Virus record (IMG/VR): IMGVR_UViG_3300022821_000065
Coordinates: 1-34,838 of that record
Direction: 5' to 3' (one strand)
Origin: a virus
Length of the DNA stretch: 34,838 nucleotides
Every line of letters begins with the position of its first letter. The stretch's first letter is position 1. Position numbers and translations under genes: made by a program. The notes under the pieces were generated by a model that ran no database searches, was not told the DNA's origin, and saw only the letters and a list, made by a program, of their open reading frames with translations. Positions 1-21,097 of the stretch are shown piece by piece.

Positions 1-24
1 GTTCTAACCATTAAACTAAAGAAC
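1..24 (-). tRNA. 5' part of a tRNA cut by the window edge
   Basis: On the minus strand the sequence reads GTTCTTTAGTTTAATGGTTA and on to GAAC, which looks like a 5' acceptor strand plus D-arm. The 5' end is at 24 and the anticodon lies outside the window. Identity cannot be given. Six bases separate it from the CCA end of the next tRNA upstream on the minus strand, the usual spacing in this array. Confidence 0.6.
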
Positions 25-30
25 AATAAT

Positions 31-113
31 TGGTGCGGGTAGAGGGACTCGAACCCCCACGCTTTCGCGTCTGCTTCTAAAGCAGGTGCGTCTACCAATT
101 TCACCATACCCGC
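31..113 (-). tRNA. tRNA-Leu (anticodon TAG)
   Basis: Cloverleaf with acceptor GCGGGTA/TACCCGC, a leucine-type D-arm, a class II variable arm (GCGAAAGC hairpin) and a canonical T-arm with GTTCGAG. The anticodon loop is TTTAGAA, giving TAG for CTA codons. CCA is encoded at 31-33 and the discriminator is A. The top anticodon-stem pair is a C-A mismatch, as the 3' strand reads GCAGA. Confidence 0.93.
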
Positions 114-207
114 ATTATAGAAGTGCAGTGACTGATCGGTAGTTGGCGTCCCAACTGTTCTCTTTGCCATTTAGACAAACCGCGTCTTAACCTGCTCTAA
201 AAGTGGA
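114..207 (-). other. Spacer between tRNA-Leu and tRNA-Cys with tRNA-like debris
   Basis: No ORF. The minus strand contains GTCTAAATGGCAAAGAGAAC, which resembles a D-arm, followed by a hairpin GTTGG-GACG-CCAAC. No T-arm or matching acceptor strand follows. It may be a decayed tRNA 5' half, but the evidence is weak. Confidence 0.3.
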
Positions 208-277
208 AGGACTATCAGGAATTGAACCTGAATAACCGAGGTTGCAGCTCGGTGCATGAGCCATTCTGCCATAGTCC
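208..277 (-). tRNA. tRNA-Cys (anticodon GCA)
   Basis: Acceptor GGACTAT/ATAGTCC, anticodon stem CCGAG/CTCGG with loop CTGCAAC (anticodon GCA) and T-arm CAGG-TTCAATT-CCTG. The discriminator is T, as usual for Cys tRNA. CCA does not follow the discriminator directly (TCCA is present), so the end probably needs trimming and CCA addition. Confidence 0.92.
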
Positions 278-284
278 CATTAAA

Positions 285-369
285 AATAAGCGCCAACGGG
301 TGTCGAACCCGTAAACCTCGTCGCGATGTCGAGGCCAGACCATCTTTTTTCGGCGGGGATCGAACCCGC
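285..369 (-). pseudogene. Two tRNA 3'-half remnants (T-arms without complete cloverleaves)
   Basis: Two perfect T-arms lie close together on the minus strand. ACGGG-TTCGACA-CCCGT is at 296-312 and GCGGG-TTCGATC-CCCGC at 353-369. An anticodon-like stem CCTCG/CGAGG with a 9-base loop precedes the first. Neither has a 5' strand that pairs with its 3' acceptor sequence; for the first, AGCGCCA would be required and is absent. They look like decayed or truncated tRNA genes. The 99-codon frame across this stretch is made largely of tRNA sequence. Confidence 0.5.
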
Positions 370-484
370 TGTCTCGGTGCGACCCGAAACCAAGCCCACG
401 CTCGTCAAGTACTTCTCTGAAGAACTTCTCGAGCAGCTCATCAGTCTTTCCTAGTGTCATGATGCTTTCGAAGGCATAAAATAT

Positions 485-578
485 TGGTACCCCCGGAGGG
501 AATCGAACCCCCATCGTGCGCTAATCCGGCGCCTATCTCGTTTATAAAACGAGCGCTCTACCATTGAGCTACAAGGGT
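485..578 (-). tRNA. tRNA with anticodon TAT (Ile, AUA) and unusually long variable region
   Basis: Acceptor ACCCTTG/CGGGGGT, standard D-arm GCTC/GAGC, anticodon stem CTCGT/ACGAG with loop TTTATAA (anticodon TAT) and T-loop TTCGATT. CCA is encoded at 485-487. The variable region is 24 nt and can form a GCGC/GCGC stem. Isoleucine tRNAs are normally class I with a 4-5 nt variable loop, so the amino-acid identity should be treated with care: it could be an Ile tRNA with an insertion or a chimera with a class II tRNA. Confidence 0.75.
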
Positions 579-726
579 AAAAGAAACTTAAAGCTACTAG
601 GGTTCTGTTTCGTTCCCGGCACCACCCGTTGGCCTACTAAAGTTCCGCTTCGCTATGGCGACCAACTTTCTGGCTCCGCGTCAGCTGGTGAAGCTGCGGC
701 GGAACCAGATGCTGATTACCAATTTG
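579..726 (-). other. GC-rich spacer with nested hairpins inside the tRNA array
   Basis: About 150 bases without a recognisable tRNA. A strong hairpin lies at 672-705 (minus strand GGTTCCGC/GCGGAGCC, with an inner CAGCT/AGCTG stem). A second nested stem pairs AAAGTT with AACTTT around 640-669, with a CGC/GCG core. The GC content is higher than in neighbouring spacers, suggesting an inserted palindromic element. The plus-strand 99-codon frame over it runs into tRNA genes and is not credible. Confidence 0.4.
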
Positions 727-801
727 TGGTGGAGACTAAGGGGGTTGAACCCTTGACCTACACACTGCCAGCGTGTTGCTCTCCCACTGAGCTAAGTCCC
801 C
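727..801 (-). tRNA. tRNA-Ala (anticodon GGC)
   Basis: Acceptor GGGGACT/AGTCTCC, D-arm GCTC/GAGC, anticodon stem ACACG/TGTGT with loop CTGGCAG (anticodon GGC, GCC codons) and T-arm with GTTCAAC. Discriminator A and CCA (727-729) are encoded. Confidence 0.93.
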
Positions 802-806
802 GTTGT

Positions 807-882
807 TGGTGTCCCATAGGAGGTTCGAACTCCTGTTACCGCCTTGAGAGGGCAGCGTCCTAAGCCACTAGACGAATGGGAC
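807..882 (-). tRNA. tRNA-Glu (anticodon CTC)
   Basis: Acceptor GTCCCAT/ATGGGAC, a Glu-type D-arm (CGTCTAGTGGCTTAGGAC), anticodon stem CTGCC/GGCGG with loop CTCTCAA (anticodon CTC) and T-arm AGGAG-TTCGAAC-CTCCT. CCA is encoded. Confidence 0.93.
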
Positions 883-887
883 GTGAT

Positions 888-963
888 TGGCGCGGGTACC
901 CGGACTCGAACCGAGATGTCCTGCTTGGAAGGCAGGGACGTTATCCATTACGCTCATACCCGC
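888..963 (-). tRNA. tRNA-Gly (anticodon TCC)
   Basis: Acceptor GCGGGTA/TACCCGC, anticodon stem CCTGC/GCAGG with loop CTTCCAA (anticodon TCC) and T-loop TTCGAGT. CCA is encoded at 888-890 after a G discriminator. Confidence 0.93.
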
Positions 964-968
964 GTTAT

Positions 969-1044
969 TGGTGGAGTCTATCGGACTTGAACCGATCGCC
1001 TCCTGCGTGCAAAGCAGGCGCTCTCCCAGATGAGCTAAGACCCC
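969..1044 (-). tRNA. tRNA-Ala (anticodon TGC)
   Basis: Acceptor GGGGTCT/AGACTCC, D-arm GCTC/GAGC, anticodon stem CCTGC/GCAGG with loop TTTGCAC (anticodon TGC) and T-arm ATCGG-TTCAAGT-CCGAT. CCA is encoded. Confidence 0.94.
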
Positions 1045-1049
1045 GTTGT

Positions 1050-1124
1050 TGGTGCGCACTGAAGGAATTGAACCTTCGGCCTCTTGCGTGTCGAGCAAGC
1101 ATTCTACCGCTGAACTAAGCGCGC
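1050..1124 (-). tRNA. tRNA-Val (anticodon GAC) with C at position 33
   Basis: Acceptor GCGCGCT/AGTGCGC, anticodon stem CTTGC/GCAAG, T-arm GAAGG-TTCAATT-CCTTC and encoded CCA. The seven-base anticodon loop is TCGACAC. The anticodon is therefore GAC (Val GUC) and position 33, almost always U, is C. The rest of the molecule is intact and resembles the adjacent tRNA-Val(TAC). Confidence 0.85.
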
Positions 1125-1129
1125 ATTGT

Positions 1130-1204
1130 TGGTGGTCGGTGAGGGGATCGAACCCCCGGCCTCTTCCGTGTAAAGGAAGCGTTCTTCCGCTGAACTAACC
1201 GACT
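1130..1204 (-). tRNA. tRNA-Val (anticodon TAC)
   Basis: Anticodon stem CTTCC/GGAAG with loop TTTACAC (anticodon TAC), D-arm GTTC/GAAC and T-loop TTCGATC. Acceptor AGTCGGT/ACCGACC has an A-C mismatch at the first pair. CCA is encoded at 1130-1132. Confidence 0.9.
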
Positions 1205-1210
1205 ATGAAT

Positions 1211-1286
1211 TGGCTGGAGTGACAGGACTTGAACCTGCATATGACTGGTTAACAGCCAGCTCTCTTACCGAGTTGAGTACACTCCA
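1211..1286 (-). tRNA. tRNA-Asn (anticodon GTT)
   Basis: Acceptor TGGAGTG/CACTCCA, anticodon stem GCTGG/CCAGT with loop CTGTTAA (anticodon GTT), T-arm GCAGG-TTCAAGT-CCTGT, G discriminator and encoded CCA. Confidence 0.94.
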
Positions 1287-1295
1287 ATAAAAAAA

Positions 1296-1418
1296 TGATG
1301 TTGCACAACGGAATCGAACCGTATACTGCATAGAACCGTTCCATGGTTAGTCCTATGGCTTAGTGTACCCGTGAGGTACCAGGCGAGGCGCGCGGCAGTC
1401 ATCCAAGACTTCGCAACA
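1296..1418 (-). tRNA. Aberrant ~121-nt tRNA-like element (possibly a disrupted tRNA-Ser)
   Basis: Termini pair as an acceptor stem (TGTTGCG/TGCAACA). A D-arm-like GTC-TTGGAT-GAC follows the 5' strand, and a T-arm ACGG-TTCGATT-CCGT precedes the 3' strand. Between the D-arm and a possible anticodon arm (AACC-ATGGAAC-GGTT, anticodon GGA) lie about 45 extra bases, including a GTACC-TCACG-GGTAC hairpin. The 3' end reads TCA rather than CCA and is followed by a T-run. It could be a tRNA with an insertion, a chimera of two tRNAs, or a dead gene. An intact tRNA-Ser(GGA) is present at 2760-2847. Confidence 0.5.
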
Positions 1419-1423
1419 TTGAT

Positions 1424-1501
1424 TGGAGATACCGACGGGAGTCGAACCCGCATTTTCCTGATTGAAAGTCAAGAGTCCTAGACCAGTTAGACGACGGTAT
1501 C
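1424..1501 (-). tRNA. tRNA-Glu (anticodon TTC)
   Basis: Acceptor GATACCG/CGGTATC, a Glu-type D-arm, anticodon stem CTTGA/TCAGG with loop CTTTCAA (anticodon TTC) and T-arm GCGGG-TTCGACT-CCCGT. CCA is encoded after a T discriminator. Confidence 0.93.
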
Positions 1502-1625
1502 ATGAAAAAAATTACTAAATATCTGAGTGATCACCATGGTCTGCTCTAACAAACCCGTGCTTAGGGTGGTGAGCATATACATGGCTATCGTTATGAACGA
1601 TCTTGCTACCTTGCTTTCGTAAATG

Positions 1626-1700
1626 TCTGCGTGAGTGGATTTGAACCACTGGCCTCTCCCTTCCGAGGGGAGCACTCTTCCCAGGCTGAGCTACACACAG
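1626..1700 (-). tRNA. tRNA-Pro (anticodon CGG)
   Basis: Acceptor CTGTGTG/CACGCAG, anticodon stem CTCCC/GGGAG with loop CTCGGAA (anticodon CGG) and T-arm AGTGG-TTCAAAT-CCACT. CCA is not encoded: the 3' end is followed by CAT. The preceding 124 bases (1502-1625) contain only small hairpins, such as ATCGTT-CAT-AACGAT. Confidence 0.92.
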
Positions 1701-1720
1701 TTACTAGTACGTCCTCTACG

Positions 1721-2329
1721 CTAACCGATCGGTATCGCGTCTGAGTGACGAATCTTTTTATTTTCAGAGTCATTGGTTATCCAAATGGTTCCGAACTGAG
1801 AGTTCTTTGGGCCATCATGTTTTCCAATATGCGATTGACGCATTTTTTCTTTTGTTTTTTTCGAATACGACTTACCAAGAAAATATTTCTGGCCTTTCAT
1901 TCGCTCGCTAAGCATCGATCTATAACGATTAGCCCATTCTGGATTTTCAGCCCATAGCGTTCTTTTAGCAGCGTTTCCAGCTTCAGACGAGCGTTTCTTA
2001 AAACTAAGATCGCGGCGCCTCTGTTCATCAAGATCAACCGATAAACTAGAGGAATTAACGTAACTCCAACCACCGTTACCGCCTTCATGAAGGTTGTACT
2101 CCGGATCGATCTTACTGATGAGGTTTTTCTCCTCATCGAACATCTGGTCTTCAGATTTGAAAGTAGCGAGAACTTCTTTGGCGAAGTTCTCGCTACCGTA
2201 CTTCTTGATGGCTCGACGGATTAACTTTCCGGAACCCATGTACCCGTCATCTACATCATCGGTCTTATGGCAGCCGATATATCGCTTTCCATTGACTTTG
2301 TTTGTGATCATGTAGACTAGGTACTTCAA
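1721..2329 (-). CDS. GIY-YIG homing-endonuclease-like protein (Seg family type)
   Basis: A 202-residue nuclease of the type that spreads intronless homing genes in T4-like phages. The N-terminus has a GIY-YIG core (VYMITNKVNGKRYIG, residues 5-19), a conserved Arg in KLIRRAIKKYGSENF and the catalytic Glu region DEEKNLISKIDPEYNLHEGG. A DNA-binding tail follows, with a NUMOD3-like repeat (SKKTKEKMRQSHIGKH, about 155-170) and an FGTIWITND motif. The C-terminus stops at AIPIG, just where relatives usually continue, so it may be slightly truncated. The start is TTG with a GGGGTAG Shine-Dalgarno-like stretch a few bases upstream. It sits between tRNA-Pro(CGG) and tRNA-Pro(TGG), consistent with insertion into a tRNA array. 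Activity is inferred from motifs. Confidence 0.88.
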   Translation of the reverse strand: MKYLVYMITNKVNGKRYIGCHKTDDVDDGYMGSGKLIRRAIKKYGSENFAKEVLATFKSEDQMFDEEKNLISKIDPEYNLHEGGNGGWSYVNSSSLSVDLDEQRRRDLSFKKRSSEAGNAAKRTLWAENPEWANRYRSMLSERMKGQKYFLGKSYSKKTKEKMRQSHIGKHDGPKNSQFGTIWITNDSENKKIRHSDAIPIG

Positions 2330-2397
2330 AACTACCCCGTTGGTACTCCGTATTCGCTCTATTTAGAGTTCGATACTTAGTACCAACGGGTGCGATG

Positions 2398-2472
2398 TCC
2401 GGGCGACAGGATTTGAACCTGCGTGCCCCTCGTTCCAAACAAGGTCGGATACCAGACTCCCGACACACCCGG
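2398..2472 (-). tRNA. tRNA-Pro (anticodon TGG)
   Basis: Acceptor CCGGGTG/CGCCCGG, anticodon stem CCTTG/CGAGG with loop TTTGGAA (anticodon TGG) and T-loop TTCAAAT. Discriminator A is followed by CA, so no complete CCA is encoded, as with the other tRNA-Pro. Confidence 0.92.
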
Positions 2473-2577
2473 ATAATATTGGCCATAGCATTTATTAGAC
2501 TCACCGAGTTTTGTGAGTCACCTTGATCTCATGAGTACTATGACTCATAAGACCAGGAAGTTCTAGGTAACTTATAG
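2473..2577 (-). other. Spacer with two hairpins
   Basis: No ORF or tRNA. It contains two inverted repeats, GACTCAC/GTGAGTC (2498-2519) and ATGAGT/ACTCAT (2531-2548). Neither has a T-run, so they are not convincing terminators; they may be processing or spacer structures. Confidence 0.4.
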
Positions 2578-2669
2578 TGGCGGTGAGTAGAGGATTTGAA
2601 CCCCTGGAACCCTTGCGGGCTCGTCTGTTTTCGAAACAGATGCAATAAGCCAGACTCTGCCAACTCACC
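2578..2669 (-). tRNA. tRNA-Ser (anticodon CGA)
   Basis: Class II tRNA: acceptor GGTGAGT/ACTCACC, anticodon stem TCTGT/ACAGA with loop TTCGAAA (anticodon CGA), a long variable arm (GAGCCC-GCAA-GGGTTC) and T-loop TTCAAAT. G discriminator and CCA are encoded. It is the last of three tandem tRNA-Ser genes that alternate with the two permuted tRNA-like elements. Confidence 0.94.
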
Positions 2670-2684
2670 ATGTATTTAGAGGCG

Positions 2685-2754
2685 GCGCAGTATCCTAACT
2701 CTTAGACGACAAGACGCATAGTGTCCCGACGGATTGAAGTCCGCGTCTCTGCAC
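2685..2754 (-). ncRNA. Circularly permuted tRNA-like element, copy 2
   Basis: On the minus strand a tRNA-like 3' half (T-arm-like GCGGACTTCAATCCG, then acceptor strand CGGGACAC) comes first. After a three-base link (TAT) it is followed by a 5' half: GCGTCTTG and a Glu/Gln-type D-arm (GTCTAAGAGTTAGGAT). The two acceptor strands pair apart from one C-A mismatch. The outer ends pair as an anticodon-stem-like helix, GTGCAG with CTGCGC. The D-loop lacks GG and the T-loop is irregular, so it may not act in translation. See copy 1 at 2859-2930. Confidence 0.5.
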
Positions 2755-2759
2755 ATTAG

Positions 2760-2847
2760 TGGCGGTTAGTAGAGGATTCGAACCTCTGGGACCTTTCAGT
2801 CCACTCGCTTTCCAGGCGAGCACAATCGACCGCTCTGTCAACTAACC
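2760..2847 (-). tRNA. tRNA-Ser (anticodon GGA)
   Basis: Class II: acceptor GGTTAGT/ACTAACC, anticodon stem CTCGC/GCGAG with loop CTGGAAA (anticodon GGA), variable arm GGACTGAAAGGTCC and T-arm AGAGG-TTCGAAT-CCTCT. CCA is encoded. It is similar in sequence to the flanking tRNA-Ser genes, indicating tandem duplication followed by anticodon divergence. Confidence 0.94.
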
Positions 2848-2858
2848 GTTGTTGTGAT

Positions 2859-2930
2859 GTACAGTATCCTTAACTCTTAGAAGACAAGACACAGTTGTGT
2901 CCAGGCGGATTGAAGTCCGCATCTCTGCAC
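2859..2930 (-). ncRNA. Circularly permuted tRNA-like element, copy 1
   Basis: Same layout as copy 2: 3' half (GCGGACTTCAATCCGC, then CTGGACAC), a four-base link AACT, then 5' half (GTGTCTTG, a D-arm-like CTTCTAAGAGTTAAGGAT). Acceptor strands GTGTCTTG/CTGGACAC pair except for one T-T. The outer ends GTGCAG/CTGTAC pair, and the changed bases relative to copy 2 keep the helix (U-A here, G-U there, and the converse). No tRNA-like element in the normal order overlaps it. The identity of any anticodon is unclear because the break lies there. Confidence 0.5.
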
Positions 2931-2935
2931 GTTGT

Positions 2936-3025
2936 TGGCGGAAGAAGTGGGATTCAAACCCACGGAACCTTTCGGTTCTCTCGCTTTCAAGGCGAGTGCA
3001 TTAAGTCAGACTCTGCCATTCTTCC
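2936..3025 (-). tRNA. tRNA-Ser (anticodon TGA)
   Basis: Class II: acceptor GGAAGAA/TTCTTCC, anticodon stem CTCGC/GCGAG with loop CTTGAAA (anticodon TGA), variable arm GAACCGAAAGGTTC, T-arm GTGGG-TTTGAAT-CCCAC and encoded CCA. The T-loop starts TTTG rather than TTCG. Confidence 0.93.
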
Positions 3026-3028
3026 ATA

Positions 3029-3151
3029 TTACTTGTTGCGACCACACCAAGTTGGTGTCTGCGAATGGCAGTTAGGACAGAGCAACCGGAGGTTCTCTAG
3101 CCTATGATCAGTCGAGATACCGTTGACATGGTCTAGCTGTTTTCGAAAACC
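3029..3151 (-). pseudogene. C-terminal remnant of an HNH homing endonuclease
   Basis: Between tRNA-Tyr and tRNA-Ser(TGA) the minus strand encodes about 40 residues ending at TAA. They carry the second half of an HNH module: a QLDHVNGISTDHRLENLRLL segment (with the conserved Asp-His and the Asn of HNH), then a CPNCHSQT zinc-binding pair and a WCGRNK end. These features are typical of phage HNH homing endonucleases. No start codon or N-terminal half (the first Cys pair) remains: the frame runs upstream into tRNA-Tyr. I read it as the scar of a homing gene that once lay in the array. Confidence 0.8.
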
Positions 3152-3157
3152 ACTAAG

Positions 3158-3241
3158 TGGTGAATAGGGTAGGATTCGAACCTACTCAGCGCAAAGGCCA
3201 CTGGTTTACAGCCAGCTTATCTCTCCTGGGAATGCCTATCC
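3158..3241 (-). tRNA. tRNA-Tyr (anticodon GTA)
   Basis: Class II tyrosine tRNA: acceptor GGATAGG/CCTATTC, anticodon stem GCTGG/CCAGT with loop CTGTAAA (anticodon GTA), a long variable region and T-arm GTAGG-TTCGAAT-CCTAC. Discriminator A and CCA are encoded. The spacer to the next tRNA (3242-3291) holds a nested hairpin, GGTTAG/CTAACC around GTCGC/GCGGC. Confidence 0.92.
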
Positions 3242-3291
3242 ATTGAAGATCGGTTAGTCTGCCGCAGCTCGCGACTTTCCTAACCCGTTAT

Positions 3292-3368
3292 TGGTTGCAG
3301 GGGCGGGATTCGAACACCGCGACCTCCTGGGTATGAACCAGACGAGCTGACCACTGCTCCACCCTGCC
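3292..3368 (-). tRNA. tRNA-fMet-like (anticodon CAT)
   Basis: Anticodon loop TTCATAC in stem TCTGG/CCAGG. The acceptor is GGCAGGG/CCCTGCA with a mismatched first pair (G-A), a hallmark of bacterial initiator tRNA (C-A in E. coli). The D-arm TGGAGCAG..GGTCAGCTCG and the CAACCA end are also initiator-like. The three G-C pairs expected at the base of the anticodon stem are incomplete. The T-stem 5' strand has one extra base (GCGGTG before TTCGAAT), leaving a bulge. It is probably an initiator tRNA, possibly defective; an elongator Met tRNA is the alternative. Confidence 0.82.
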
Positions 3369-3374
3369 AAAATT

Positions 3375-3502
3375 TGGTGTGCGTTAGTTTAGTGTGGATC
3401 CGCACCCCCCACCATAATCGCTTGCTCTTCGCAAGCCGCTCGCATAGCGAGCAAATACCAGTCGCGGACGCAGTCGTTTGCTATCCCACTAGACTACTAC
3501 AC
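3375..3502 (-). tRNA. Aberrant ~125-nt tRNA-like element with two inserted hairpins
   Basis: The 5' part, GTGTAGTAGTCTAGTGGGAT, looks like a tRNA acceptor strand and D-arm, and the 3' end is ACGCACACCA with encoded CCA. GTG/CAC and TAGT/ACTA pair with three extra bases on the 3' side. There is no normal T-arm. The centre holds two adjacent GC-rich hairpins, GCTCGC-TAT-GCGAGC and GCTTGC-GAAGA-GCAAGC. It is probably a tRNA gene broken by a palindromic insertion. No anticodon is assigned. Confidence 0.4.
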
Positions 3503-3625
3503 TATTGTGCAGCTAATCATATCGCCTGAATTTTACTCCCCCAGTCTATTAGGGTTTCATCCTCAGGGCCGCCCGTTCAGACTTTGTTTAAGGTGGCGTC
3601 TTGCAGCCTCGTTCCGCTACCACCT
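3503..3625 (-). other. Non-coding stretch with a cruciform-like hairpin
   Basis: No ORF or recognisable tRNA. GGTGG/CCACC at 3590-3625 encloses a GTAGC/GCTGC stem. The remainder has a G-rich run (GGGGGAG) but no family I recognise. It lies directly downstream, on the minus strand, of the terminator at 3626-3654. Confidence 0.4.
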
Positions 3626-6563: not shown

Positions 6564-7182
6564 TGTTCTCAGTATTGATAAAGAAAAGACCATTCTTCTG
6601 CATAAACGGTTTACGCATGTTACTACGGTTTTCTCGAATCTCTTTCGTAAAAGTCTCTGAAAATGTAAAGCCGTACTTAGCAAAAGTTTTTATCCAATAT
6701 TCTTTTGGCTGCTCATTGACATGATGATGACTGCCGTGACCTGGAGGAGCAGCAGTAACAATTGCGTACTTACAACGAGCAAATGCTCGCATGTAGTTAT
6801 CAACGTACTTCTCATCAACGTGTTCAAGAAATTCTACTGACCACGCTAGATCGAATTTAGAATCGCCAAGGTCGGCTGGACCTGTACAAAAATCATGGAT
6901 TAATACTTTACTGTCTTTGAATTTGAGAGTAAAGTCACCATCAATACCAATAGCATCAAGGCCTCGGTGTTTAGCAATACGAACCATGTCTCCTGGTCCA
7001 CAGCCGATATCAAGCATTGACTTGATTTGAAACATCTCTATCAAATAATAGAGAGTTCCACGATCTGTATGCACTTTGTTTAGATGACAGCCGAGATGAT
7101 TAGGAAGAGTAGCGGCGTCCTTCGACGATGTGTTGTGGCTTTCGTCGGTATTTTCCAATTGCTTCATTGTACCATTCATCAC
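6553..7182 (-). CDS. Class I SAM-dependent methyltransferase
   Basis: About 209 residues. Motif I is MLDIGCGPGDMV (about 56-67), followed by GIDGD for the ribose-binding acidic residue and FDLAWSVEFLEHV as motif IV/post-IV, as in Methyltransf_11-type small-molecule methyltransferases. The N-terminus is uncertain because the first 80 bases overlap the GIY-YIG gene; ATG at 7182 or 7167 are options. It lies at the head of the sugar genes, suggesting methylation of a sugar or lipid-linked intermediate. The specificity cannot be read. Confidence 0.75.
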   Translation of the reverse strand: MMNGTMKQLENTDESHNTSSKDAATLPNHLGCHLNKVHTDRGTLYYLIEMFQIKSMLDIGCGPGDMVRIAKHRGLDAIGIDGDFTLKFKDSKVLIHDFCTGPADLGDSKFDLAWSVEFLEHVDEKYVDNYMRAFARCKYAIVTAAPPGHGSHHHVNEQPKEYWIKTFAKYGFTFSETFTKEIRENRSNMRKPFMQKNGLFFINTENNGR

Positions 7183-7516
7183 TTTCTAATACACCGAGGA
7201 GAAACTGTTGTCGTACTTCCTCGTAATTTACATCACCCCGAGTCGTATGCAGAGAGAGAATTCTCCTTTCAAAGTTTTCTTCTCCAAGCTTCTCAATATC
7301 TGCAAGAAGCTCTTGCGATGACCCGTAATACTCGCGCCAATCGCTTTCTGAACGTTGACGTCTCTTCTTACCCTTCTGCTTCCTAATAGACCAGAAGTAC
7401 TTACGACCTATGTATCGTCTGCCGTCGAGTTTGTTTGTAATTAAGTAGACAAAACCAGCAAACTTATCTGGACTGTCATACGGAACTCCGTTAAAAAGCC
7501 ACGGGTTTTCGTACAC
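7100..7516 (-). CDS. GIY-YIG nuclease-like protein
   Basis: 138 residues with GFVYLITNKLDGRRYIG as the GIY-YIG core (about 21-35), followed by the acidic motif in GEENFERRIL and NYEEVRQQFLLGVL, probably containing the catalytic Glu. It lacks the long DNA-binding tail of the GIY-YIG gene at 1721-2329. It starts at GTG directly after the stop of the zinc-ribbon gene. Free-standing proteins of this kind are common in T4-like phages and may be homing or resident nucleases. Its 3' end overlaps the methyltransferase. Confidence 0.78.
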   Translation of the reverse strand: MYENPWLFNGVPYDSPDKFAGFVYLITNKLDGRRYIGRKYFWSIRKQKGKKRRQRSESDWREYYGSSQELLADIEKLGEENFERRILSLHTTRGDVNYEEVRQQFLLGVLESDEWYNEAIGKYRRKPQHIVEGRRYSS

Positions 7517-19438: not shown

Positions 19439-19446
19439 TATTTATC
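19439..19446 (-). promoter_or_regulatory. Late-promoter-like site with leader hairpin
   Basis: Minus-strand GATAAATA (one mismatch to TATAAATA), 87 bases upstream of the gene at 17940-19352. Between them lies a hairpin with stem ACAGCAG/CTGCTGT around a loop that contains a GAGGA-like sequence. Confidence 0.5.
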
Positions 19447-21097
19447 TTTTAACGATTCTAGTCCGCTTTTCGATGCGAATAGACTCAGTCTTATAGACTA
19501 AATACACGTTGTGCTGCTTGACGTTCATATTCAGACCGCCGTTGTATCGAAGGCCGTCGTATCCCTTCTTAATCAGCCAAGATCTAGCTCCAGCAGTGTT
19601 TACCATGCCACCAGAGAGTCCTTTGAATACTTGATCGCCGCTGAGCTCAAGAGTACCTTTCTTAAGCATTGCTAGTACGAGAAACGTATCTTTACCCATA
19701 ACAAAAAGCCCAGCTCCACGGGCAAATTTGTCTAAATCTGTAGGTAGAATATCAAGAAGATCTTTACCAGTGAATGTTTGCTCTACATCAAATACTTTGC
19801 GCAAAGTCAGTCTGACTGTATAAACTATTGGTTCGCCTTCTTTGCGTGACATTGTTCTAGCATATGACTTACCAACTTCATAATCATCTGTAAAGTACGC
19901 GATGCCGCCGCCATAAAAGTCATTAGCTATTCGAGCTTTACGTTGATCAAATTTCGAAAATATTGAATTAGATCCATGAAATACAGTACCTACGAATGCG
20001 CCGCGTTTTTGAACTGCCGGCTTTGTATTCAGGTTTTGATCTGTAGGTTTATCGCCGTGGACTTTGATGAAGACTGAACTGATTTTTGTAGCTGAAGAAG
20101 CGTATGAGATAATGGCGGTCATCACATCATTTTTGTGAGCAGTATCCATTTTACTGATACTTGTTAATACATCAGAAACTTGCACCATTGAGATTACATA
20201 ATTGAGAGCGTTATCTTTTCGTTCAATTTGAGTAATGAATTCGTCTACTCTCATTTGACGCATGCCAATTGGATCAAGTCTTAAAGCTGCCTCATAAAGA
20301 CGCTTATAGACTACACTAGCATTCCGTGAATATTCGTGAGTAATTTCTTGATGAGTTACAGTCTTGAAATTCTTATCAAATCTTCTCATAATAGCAAAAA
20401 GCTGGCTAGAGCCAACCTTGCCGCCCGCAGCTAAATCGCCATAAATTTCTGCGCTAATACTTTCTGGGCGGCCGAAATTTCTAAGTCTAATTTCTCCGAG
20501 GTTGTACTCAACTACACCATCTAAAGAATTGAGAAAACCAACTTTGCCAGTGCTATGAGATTTATATTCGATGTTTGGATTTGTGTCTTTGTTGATGACT
20601 TCAGCTTTAGCTTTCTTACCAACAAGCTTAAGCGACACACCAAATACTTTTTCGGCGTGGTACATATCTTCAAGCCAAGCATTGAGCTCTTGTATTGTGC
20701 CAAACTGTTTGAAGTCTATATTAAGTAAGTCTTTGTGGACTAACCAAACGTCAGCTGGATTCCACTTGTCAAGATTCATCGAATGATCAGATTCTTTAAT
20801 CAGTACTTTAGCTCGTTGAGATATATTCTCAACAAACTTGCTCTTTGTTCGATGATTGACTATTAGAGACTTTTGACCGATGAATTTAACGAGAGTATCT
20901 GCTACTGTTCTAGCAGATGATAACCACTTCTCATTAGCTTTCTTATAGAGCTCATCGATATTGAAAGCACAATTGATATGCGGATGGCCGTATTGTCTAA
21001 GATCTTCTAAAGAATACTCAGTCTTGGGGTGATGCAGTTTAGTTGCTATAAAGAAACCAGTAAGAGATTCTTGCTCAGCAACTGTAAGTTTTAACAA
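19442..21097 (-). CDS. Large protein with C-terminal ADP-ribosyltransferase-like domain
   Basis: 551 residues. The last ~190 residues carry ART hallmarks of the polyvalent-protein type: GTVFHGSNSIFSKFD (His motif), FYGGGIAYFTDDYEVGKSYA (Tyr motif), GARSWLIKKGYDGLRYNGG and QHNVYLVY near the end. The N-terminal ~350 residues include a WNPADVWLVHK segment recalling proteins of T4-like phages, with no assigned activity. T4 injects Alt and makes ModA/ModB ARTs to modify host proteins; this may be an analogue delivered with DNA. The start is TTG at 21097 with GGAG 8 bases upstream. Confidence 0.7.
   Translation of the reverse strand: MLKLTVAEQESLTGFFIATKLHHPKTEYSLEDLRQYGHPHINCAFNIDELYKKANEKWLSSARTVADTLVKFIGQKSLIVNHRTKSKFVENISQRAKVLIKESDHSMNLDKWNPADVWLVHKDLLNIDFKQFGTIQELNAWLEDMYHAEKVFGVSLKLVGKKAKAEVINKDTNPNIEYKSHSTGKVGFLNSLDGVVEYNLGEIRLRNFGRPESISAEIYGDLAAGGKVGSSQLFAIMRRFDKNFKTVTHQEITHEYSRNASVVYKRLYEAALRLDPIGMRQMRVDEFITQIERKDNALNYVISMVQVSDVLTSISKMDTAHKNDVMTAIISYASSATKISSVFIKVHGDKPTDQNLNTKPAVQKRGAFVGTVFHGSNSIFSKFDQRKARIANDFYGGGIAYFTDDYEVGKSYARTMSRKEGEPIVYTVRLTLRKVFDVEQTFTGKDLLDILPTDLDKFARGAGLFVMGKDTFLVLAMLKKGTLELSGDQVFKGLSGGMVNTAGARSWLIKKGYDGLRYNGGLNMNVKQHNVYLVYKTESIRIEKRTRIVKR

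Follow-up and report, generated by a model that had tools for sequence, protein, structure and literature searches.

Two paralogous elements with swapped tRNA-like halves between the tRNA-Ser genes of a T4-like phage tRNA array, possibly non-decoding tRNA-derived spacers

Introduction

The T4 tRNA cluster encodes the stable RNAs C and D, which are structured, are not tRNAs, and have no known function. Permuted tRNA genes of algae and archaea depend on a splicing endonuclease, an enzyme not known from bacteria or phages, and T4-type RNA ligases reseal anticodon breaks. Circularly permuted tRNA genes have been described in Cyanidioschyzon merolae, prasinophyte algae, and Thermofilum pendens, and their processing passes through a circular intermediate, with a bulge-helix-bulge formed at the junction and excision of the intervening sequence (PMC3978253). 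Spacers of tRNA transcripts can also yield RNA, as with the Escherichia coli sponge 3'ETS-leuZ (PMC8294330).

The two elements described here, A and B, resemble permuted tRNA genes in having a 3'-half-like part upstream, a short intervening loop, and a break at the anticodon. They differ in lacking the bulge-helix-bulge, the anticodon, CCA, and normal T- and D-loops, in belonging to a bacterial virus, and in being known here from sequence alone. Like the degenerate tRNA genes of phage arrays, they lie among intact tRNA genes and combine a weak cloverleaf with decayed invariant positions, but their halves are swapped and the two copies are better conserved than the adjacent tRNA genes. Like 3'ETS-leuZ, they are RNA that processing of the flanking tRNAs would release, although they form an internal spacer with a tRNA-like fold and no known target. 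With T4 RNAs C and D, compared by description only, they share the character of structured non-tRNA RNA within a T4-type tRNA array.

The phage record and its tRNA array

The window, by which we mean the whole stretch of DNA analysed, is a 34.8-kb IMG/VR virus record with T4-like gene content. Its family-B DNA polymerase is 46% identical to those of Synechococcus T4-like phages, and other genes encode UvsX, a DnaB-type helicase, NrdA, NrdB, clamp, clamp loader, and a RegA-type translational regulator. Positions 1 to 3400 (minus strand) form one end of a large tRNA array, in which ARAGORN called 17 tRNA genes and Rfam, at the gathering score, 16; in the near-identical contig IMGVR_UViG_3300023235_000151 (L077, L082, L105) the array reaches more than 30 tRNAs. 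The minus-strand order is Ser(TGA), A, Ser(GGA), B, Ser(CGA), with the following features, where the swapped-order model is the permuted-tRNA covariance model described below.

2936..3025, minus strand: tRNA-Ser(TGA), upstream neighbour of A, encodes CCA (ARAGORN; Rfam 53.7 bits)
2859..2930, minus strand: element A, 72 nt, a 3'-half-like and then a 5'-half-like segment of a tRNA-like cloverleaf (swapped-order model 9.5 bits; four-arm minimum-energy fold; 62/72 identity to B); in full, GTGCAG-AGAT-GCGGA-CTTCAA-TCCGC-CTGGACAC-AACT-GTGTCTTG-TC-TTCTAAGAGTTAAGGATA-CTGTAC
2896..2930, minus strand: 3'-half-like part of A, read from the sequence as GTGCAG AGAT GCGGA-CTTCAA-TCCGC CTGGACAC (A)
2859..2893, minus strand: 5'-half-like part of A, read from the sequence as (T) GTGTCTTG TC, Glu-like D-arm, CTGTAC
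2760..2847, minus strand: tRNA-Ser(GGA), between A and B (ARAGORN; Rfam 53.1 bits)
2685..2754, minus strand: element B, 70 nt, paralogue of A (swapped-order model 9.2 bits; matched by the element model); in full, GTGCAG-AGAC-GCGGA-CTTCAA-TCCGT-CGGGACAC-TAT-GCGTCTTG-TC-GTCTAAGAGTTAGGATA-CTGCGC
2721..2754, minus strand: 3'-half-like part of B, read from the sequence as GTGCAG AGAC GCGGA-CTTCAA-TCCGT CGGGACAC
2685..2718, minus strand: 5'-half-like part of B, read from the sequence as (T) GCGTCTTG TC GTCTAAGAGTTAGGATA CTGCGC
2578..2669, minus strand: tRNA-Ser(CGA), downstream neighbour of B (ARAGORN; Rfam 48.3 bits)

Both elements are present on the minus strand where the original prediction placed them, and most of the structural parts that it named can be read there. 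The six-base outer helix pairs at 6/6 positions in each (GTGCAG/CTGTAC in A and GTGCAG/CTGCGC in B), the acceptor strands pair with one mismatch each (CTGGACAC-AACT-GTGTCTTG in A and CGGGACAC-TAT-GCGTCTTG in B), and the T-arm-like hairpin reads GCGGA-CTTCAA-TCCGC/T. The D-arm, predicted to be of the Glu/Gln type, is Glu-like. Each element follows a tRNA-Ser 3' end after a 5-nt spacer (ACAAC before A and CTAAT before B), as is typical of the array. A and B are identical at 62 of 72 positions (86%), and the spacers after them at only 4 of 15. Their likeness is sharply bounded, starting and stopping at the outer stem, and pairwise identity among the three tRNA-Ser genes is 62 to 65%.

Resemblance to tRNAs with swapped halves

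A covariance model of permuted tRNAs was built from 22 tRNAs of this array with their halves swapped, and the same tRNAs, left in their normal order, gave a control model. Within the 266 bases spanning the elements, the swapped-order model matched A at 9.5 bits (E 0.0035) and B at 9.2 bits (E 0.0044), both over their full length and exactly at the coordinates that had been proposed. Over the same bases, the normal-order model found only Ser(GGA) and fragments, its best full minus-strand match outside Ser scoring 0.7 bits. A canonical or linear noncanonical tRNA was rejected, as the elements score <1 bit in normal order, have no usable T-arm, and are not matched by the Rfam tRNA model. Pairing between the halves (6/7 in the acceptor stem and 5/5 in the anticodon stem) was equalled by one of 930 cross-combinations of 5' and 3' halves of the array tRNAs. 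Since the swapped-order model matches both elements, the normal order matches neither, and such cross-pairing is so rare, the resemblance to a tRNA in swapped order, though weak, is probably not due to chance. The model match and the pairing control support a putative common tRNA origin of both halves.

The same model also sets the limits of this resemblance. Its top matches, at up to 29.9 bits, are ordinary junctions between adjacent tRNA genes. These score high since a 3' half there stands before the 5' half of the following gene, which is itself the permuted layout. Among the 31 kb of the window that lie beyond the array, a single coding stretch scored higher than the elements (12.2 bits), and over 90 kb B was found at an E value of 1.6 and A was not among the matches listed. 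The covariance search that had been suggested as a check recovered both elements in place, but it ranked a coding stretch and ordinary junctions above them. Degenerate but contiguous tRNAs of the array reach about 19 to 39 bits in normal order, well above what A and B reach in swapped order. By sequence alone, the 5' parts match the array tRNAs no better than shuffles do (310/500 and 166/500), and the 3' parts match marginally, the best case shown being to an anticodon arm and not to a T-arm.

Hallmarks of tRNA are decayed in both elements. The T-loop, already noted as irregular, is CTTCAA, with six bases instead of the 7-base TTCRANY, and the D-loop reads AAGAGTTA, without GG, as also noted. 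No 7-base anticodon loop with T33 is readable from the flanks of GTGCAG and CTGTAC/CTGCGC. At the inner junction CCA is absent and AACT (A) or TAT (B) stands instead; the other ARAGORN-found tRNAs of the array encode CCA, except the two tRNA-Pro. No bulge-helix-bulge was found from the sequence, the 5-nt leaders between the Ser CCA and the stem (ACAAC and CTAAT) being unpaired with the trailer, and ARAGORN at default settings rejected every rejoined form. With irregular T- and D-loops and no bulge-helix-bulge, anticodon loop, or CCA, A and B are not classed here as permuted tRNA genes. As expected of a tRNA-derived remnant, the elements lie in a tRNA array and have tRNA-like arms whose invariant positions are decayed.

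Predicted folding and base-pair changes

Folded alone with RNAfold, A adopts exactly the four-arm form at -22.1 kcal/mol, with 8 of 200 shuffles as good, whereas for B the four-arm cloverleaf is not preferred (103 of 200 shuffles as good). The earlier reading of each element as the 3' half before the 5' half of one cloverleaf is supported by the model scores (9.5 and 9.2 bits against <1 bit in normal order) and the 1/930 pairing, but not by the near-chance match in 90 kb or by B, which does not fold so. The joint fold of A and B has an energy of -16.6 kcal/mol (z -1.9; 42 of 1,000 column shuffles as good). Among its 23 pairs, none differs between A and B on both sides and three differ on one side, with 93.5% of cells paired. 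The compensatory changes claimed for the outer helix are in fact one-sided G-U changes opposite a constant GTGCAG, and no pair is altered on both sides.

In the predicted precursor fold, a helix between the end strand of A (CTGTACAT) and the start of B (ATGTGCAG) spans tRNA-Ser(GGA) with a probability of 0.76 to 0.97, and the outer strands pair within their own element at only about 0.04 or less. The acceptor hairpin of A stays within the element (0.90 to 0.93; across Ser, 0.003 to 0.03). The 5' part of A with the 3' part of B is the only combination of halves with perfect stems, 7/7 in the acceptor and 5/5 in the anticodon stem, or 8 bp each counting neighbouring bases. RNA from the plus strand was rejected, the joint fold being weaker there (-10.8 versus -16.6 kcal/mol). 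A candidate terminator at the acceptor hairpin (2902-2887) was called terminator-like, but such sites occur in the region at near chance number, and it too was rejected.

Relatives and similar tRNAs

The only relative found to carry the elements is contig IMGVR_UViG_3300023235_000151, in which elements and surroundings are identical (628/628 bases), so that it is uninformative on selection and covariation. No diverged copies were found in IMG/VR by exact and gapped patterns with the element covariance model run over the pattern matches, and no homologues were found by distant blastn in 50,697 phage records or by exact pattern in bacterial genomes. Among the loci searched, the element model matched only A and B (94 to 101 bits), with its acceptor hairpin one column off, so that diverged copies are possibly detected less well; an intact parent tRNA was likewise not found in this phage by that model. 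Searches with the neighbouring protein and NrdA retrieved other relatives. One of these has a tRNA array (G002; NrdA 73% identical), and the stretch of it that was examined contains neither tRNA-Ser nor element.

In other phage contigs (L132, L135, and L140), a contiguous tRNA has a 5' half resembling the 5' part of B, and the two have TCTTGTCGTCTAA...AGGANAC (TCTTGTCGTCTAA...AGGANACT) in common. This tRNA scores 47.3 bits with the Rfam tRNA model in L132 (6069-6139, minus strand) and 50.5 bits in L135 (5632-5702, plus strand). Because it was retrieved with a pattern selecting for such a D-arm, the match shows the Glu-type look of the 5' part and not descent; compared with the 3' part of the elements, its layout is alike by eye, but its sequence is not. 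In L132 and L135 this tRNA was missed by ARAGORN; its D-loop lacks GG, and position 33 in its anticodon loop (TCGACAC) is C. The arrays of these two contigs hold several further irregular tRNAs.

Origin and possible roles of the elements

We favor reading A and B as structured spacers of tRNA origin that do not decode, and assign this reading a probability of roughly 0.48. Since a permuted layout arises at every tRNA-gene junction, the relic of tandem duplication, named as one alternative in the original prediction, is the better fit, the layout being identical at junctions of neighbouring tRNAs that score up to 29.9 bits. The layout, the pairing as of one tRNA, and the decay at invariant positions are what two tandem tRNA copies without their middles would leave at their junction. 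The elements may have originated from two head-to-tail copies of one degenerate tRNA with a Glu-type D-arm, leaving a junction of the 3' half of one copy, 3 to 4 nt, and the 5' half of the next. Recombination of the cluster around the three tRNA-Ser genes would have removed the decoding middles, and a single copying of the junction element would then have given A and B. Rearrangement of the array by recombination is plausible, given the SegE-type GIY-YIG genes in and beside the array, the large deletion of the inner one in the sister contig, and the amplification of a tRNA segment by SegB in T6 (PMC13096335). From their position, the elements would be transcribed together with the array, and trimming of the flanking tRNA-Ser 3' and 5' ends would free RNAs of about 88 and 90 nt. 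In the precursor, their end strands may pair across tRNA-Ser(GGA); otherwise they may pair within the element, as those of A do when it is folded by itself. At most, the elements would serve as folding or processing spacers.

This origin is supported by the signs of decay (six bases in the T-loop, GG missing from the D-loop, a mismatch in each acceptor stem, and neither CCA nor anticodon), by the resemblance of the 5' part to the tRNA of L132, L135, and L140, by the array-typical 5-nt spacers after the Ser 3' ends, and by further degenerate tRNA-like stretches elsewhere in the array. However, the identity of A and B (86%) exceeds that of the flanking tRNA-Ser genes (62 to 65%) and has sharp ends, which is unexpected of relics decaying freely after duplication with Ser and calls for later separate copying, gene conversion, or selection. 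Also against it, there is no intact parent tRNA, and the halves resemble the array tRNAs poorly by sequence. The sharp-edged conservation speaks for a functional structured small RNA that is not a tRNA. It would be the product of a discrete 70- to 72-nt gene in two array slots, freed by tRNA-Ser processing, and would either help processing or capture a tRNA-binding enzyme as a decoy or sponge. The gene-like slot after a 5-nt spacer, the stable four-arm fold of A, and the joint fold (z -1.9) are consistent with such an RNA, for which 3'ETS-leuZ offers a precedent (PMC8294330). Nevertheless, B alone favours a different fold, A and B do not covary, and homologues are missing from annotated phages and, by exact pattern, from bacterial genomes; we consider this reading rather unlikely, if worth keeping in sight. 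A structured spacer unrelated to tRNA, with a resemblance arising by chance, would account for model scores near the chance level (B at E 1.6 over 90 kb; a coding stretch of the window at 12.2 bits) and for halves that resemble the array tRNAs weakly in sequence. It would leave unexplained that both elements match at full length with four arms in the right order while the normal order fails, that inter-half pairing was equalled in 1/930 combinations, and that the TCTTGTCGTCTAA block also occurs in a contiguous tRNA of other phages, and we regard it as improbable.

A disrupted tRNA encoded by the array is very unlikely, be it the permuted form (A and B) or one that tRNA-Ser(GGA) interrupts; ordinary tRNA processing would free its halves, and a phage RNA ligase would join them at the anticodon. 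In the interrupted form, the 5' part of A and the 3' part of B would be the halves of a Glu-type tRNA with tRNA-Ser(GGA) inserted in its anticodon loop, and after Ser excision they would pair and be rejoined, for example, by a T4-type RNA repair ligase. The perfect stems of this combination alone and the predicted CTGTACAT/ATGTGCAG helix around Ser(GGA) point that way, but the acceptor strand of A pairs in its own element and hardly across Ser, and the extra pairs could arise by chance. Furthermore, anticodon, position-33 T, and CCA are not evident, and no RNA ligase or kinase was found among the scanned proteins of the window, the record being a fragment, which together make this form highly improbable. 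The order of the halves and the swapped-order match suggest a functional circularly permuted tRNA gene of the kind known from certain algae and Thermofilum, and since T. pendens has a 1-nt intervening sequence (PMC3978253), one of 3 to 4 nt is no bar. However, the 5-nt leader and trailer form no bulge-helix-bulge, anticodon and CCA are missing, the T- and D-loops are irregular, and ARAGORN at default settings refuses all rejoined forms. With scores below those of every degenerate contiguous tRNA of the array, this reading is not upheld, and we give it the least credence of all. If true, a phage permuted tRNA would need another route, for which T4-type RNA ligases are a candidate, and a disrupted tRNA of this kind would be, to our knowledge, the first in a bacterial virus. 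Even as remnants, A and B show how phage tRNA arrays rearrange, and because any junction of neighbouring tRNAs looks permuted, claims of permuted tRNAs in arrays need a junction control.

Additional features of the array and window

Both tRNA-Pro genes (2397-2472 and 1625-1700, minus strand) are those without encoded CCA. Between them lies a GIY-YIG (SegE-like) open reading frame (1721-2329, minus strand), about 380 bases of which are absent from contig IMGVR_UViG_3300023235_000151, and a second SegE-like gene is located at 7100-7516. A tRNA-Tyr-like gene (anticodon GTA) at 3161-3241 (minus strand) scores 30.0 bits with the Rfam tRNA model and was missed by ARAGORN. Between tRNA-Glu(TTC) and tRNA-Asn (1290-1411, minus strand) is a tRNA-like stretch of about 120 nt called by neither ARAGORN nor Rfam, with an acceptor-like GTTGC/GCAAC, a T-arm (GGTTCGATTCC), an ATCA end, and a long hairpin-bearing insert. 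The spacer between tRNA-Ile(TAT) and tRNA-Cys (290-390, minus strand) has two T-arm-like hairpins (GCGGGTTCGATCCCCGC and ACGGGTTCGACACCCGT) and no complete tRNA called. Upstream of tRNA-Met, positions 3385-3510 (minus strand) are highly structured and tRNA-like, begin like a D-arm, and contain a long hairpin insertion; the spacer after tRNA-Ser(CGA) (2473-2577, minus strand) forms strong stacked hairpins unrelated to A and B. Outside the array, a 551-aa open reading frame (19442-21097, minus strand) has a weak match to ADP-ribosyltransferase-type domains (PF18760 and PF13151).
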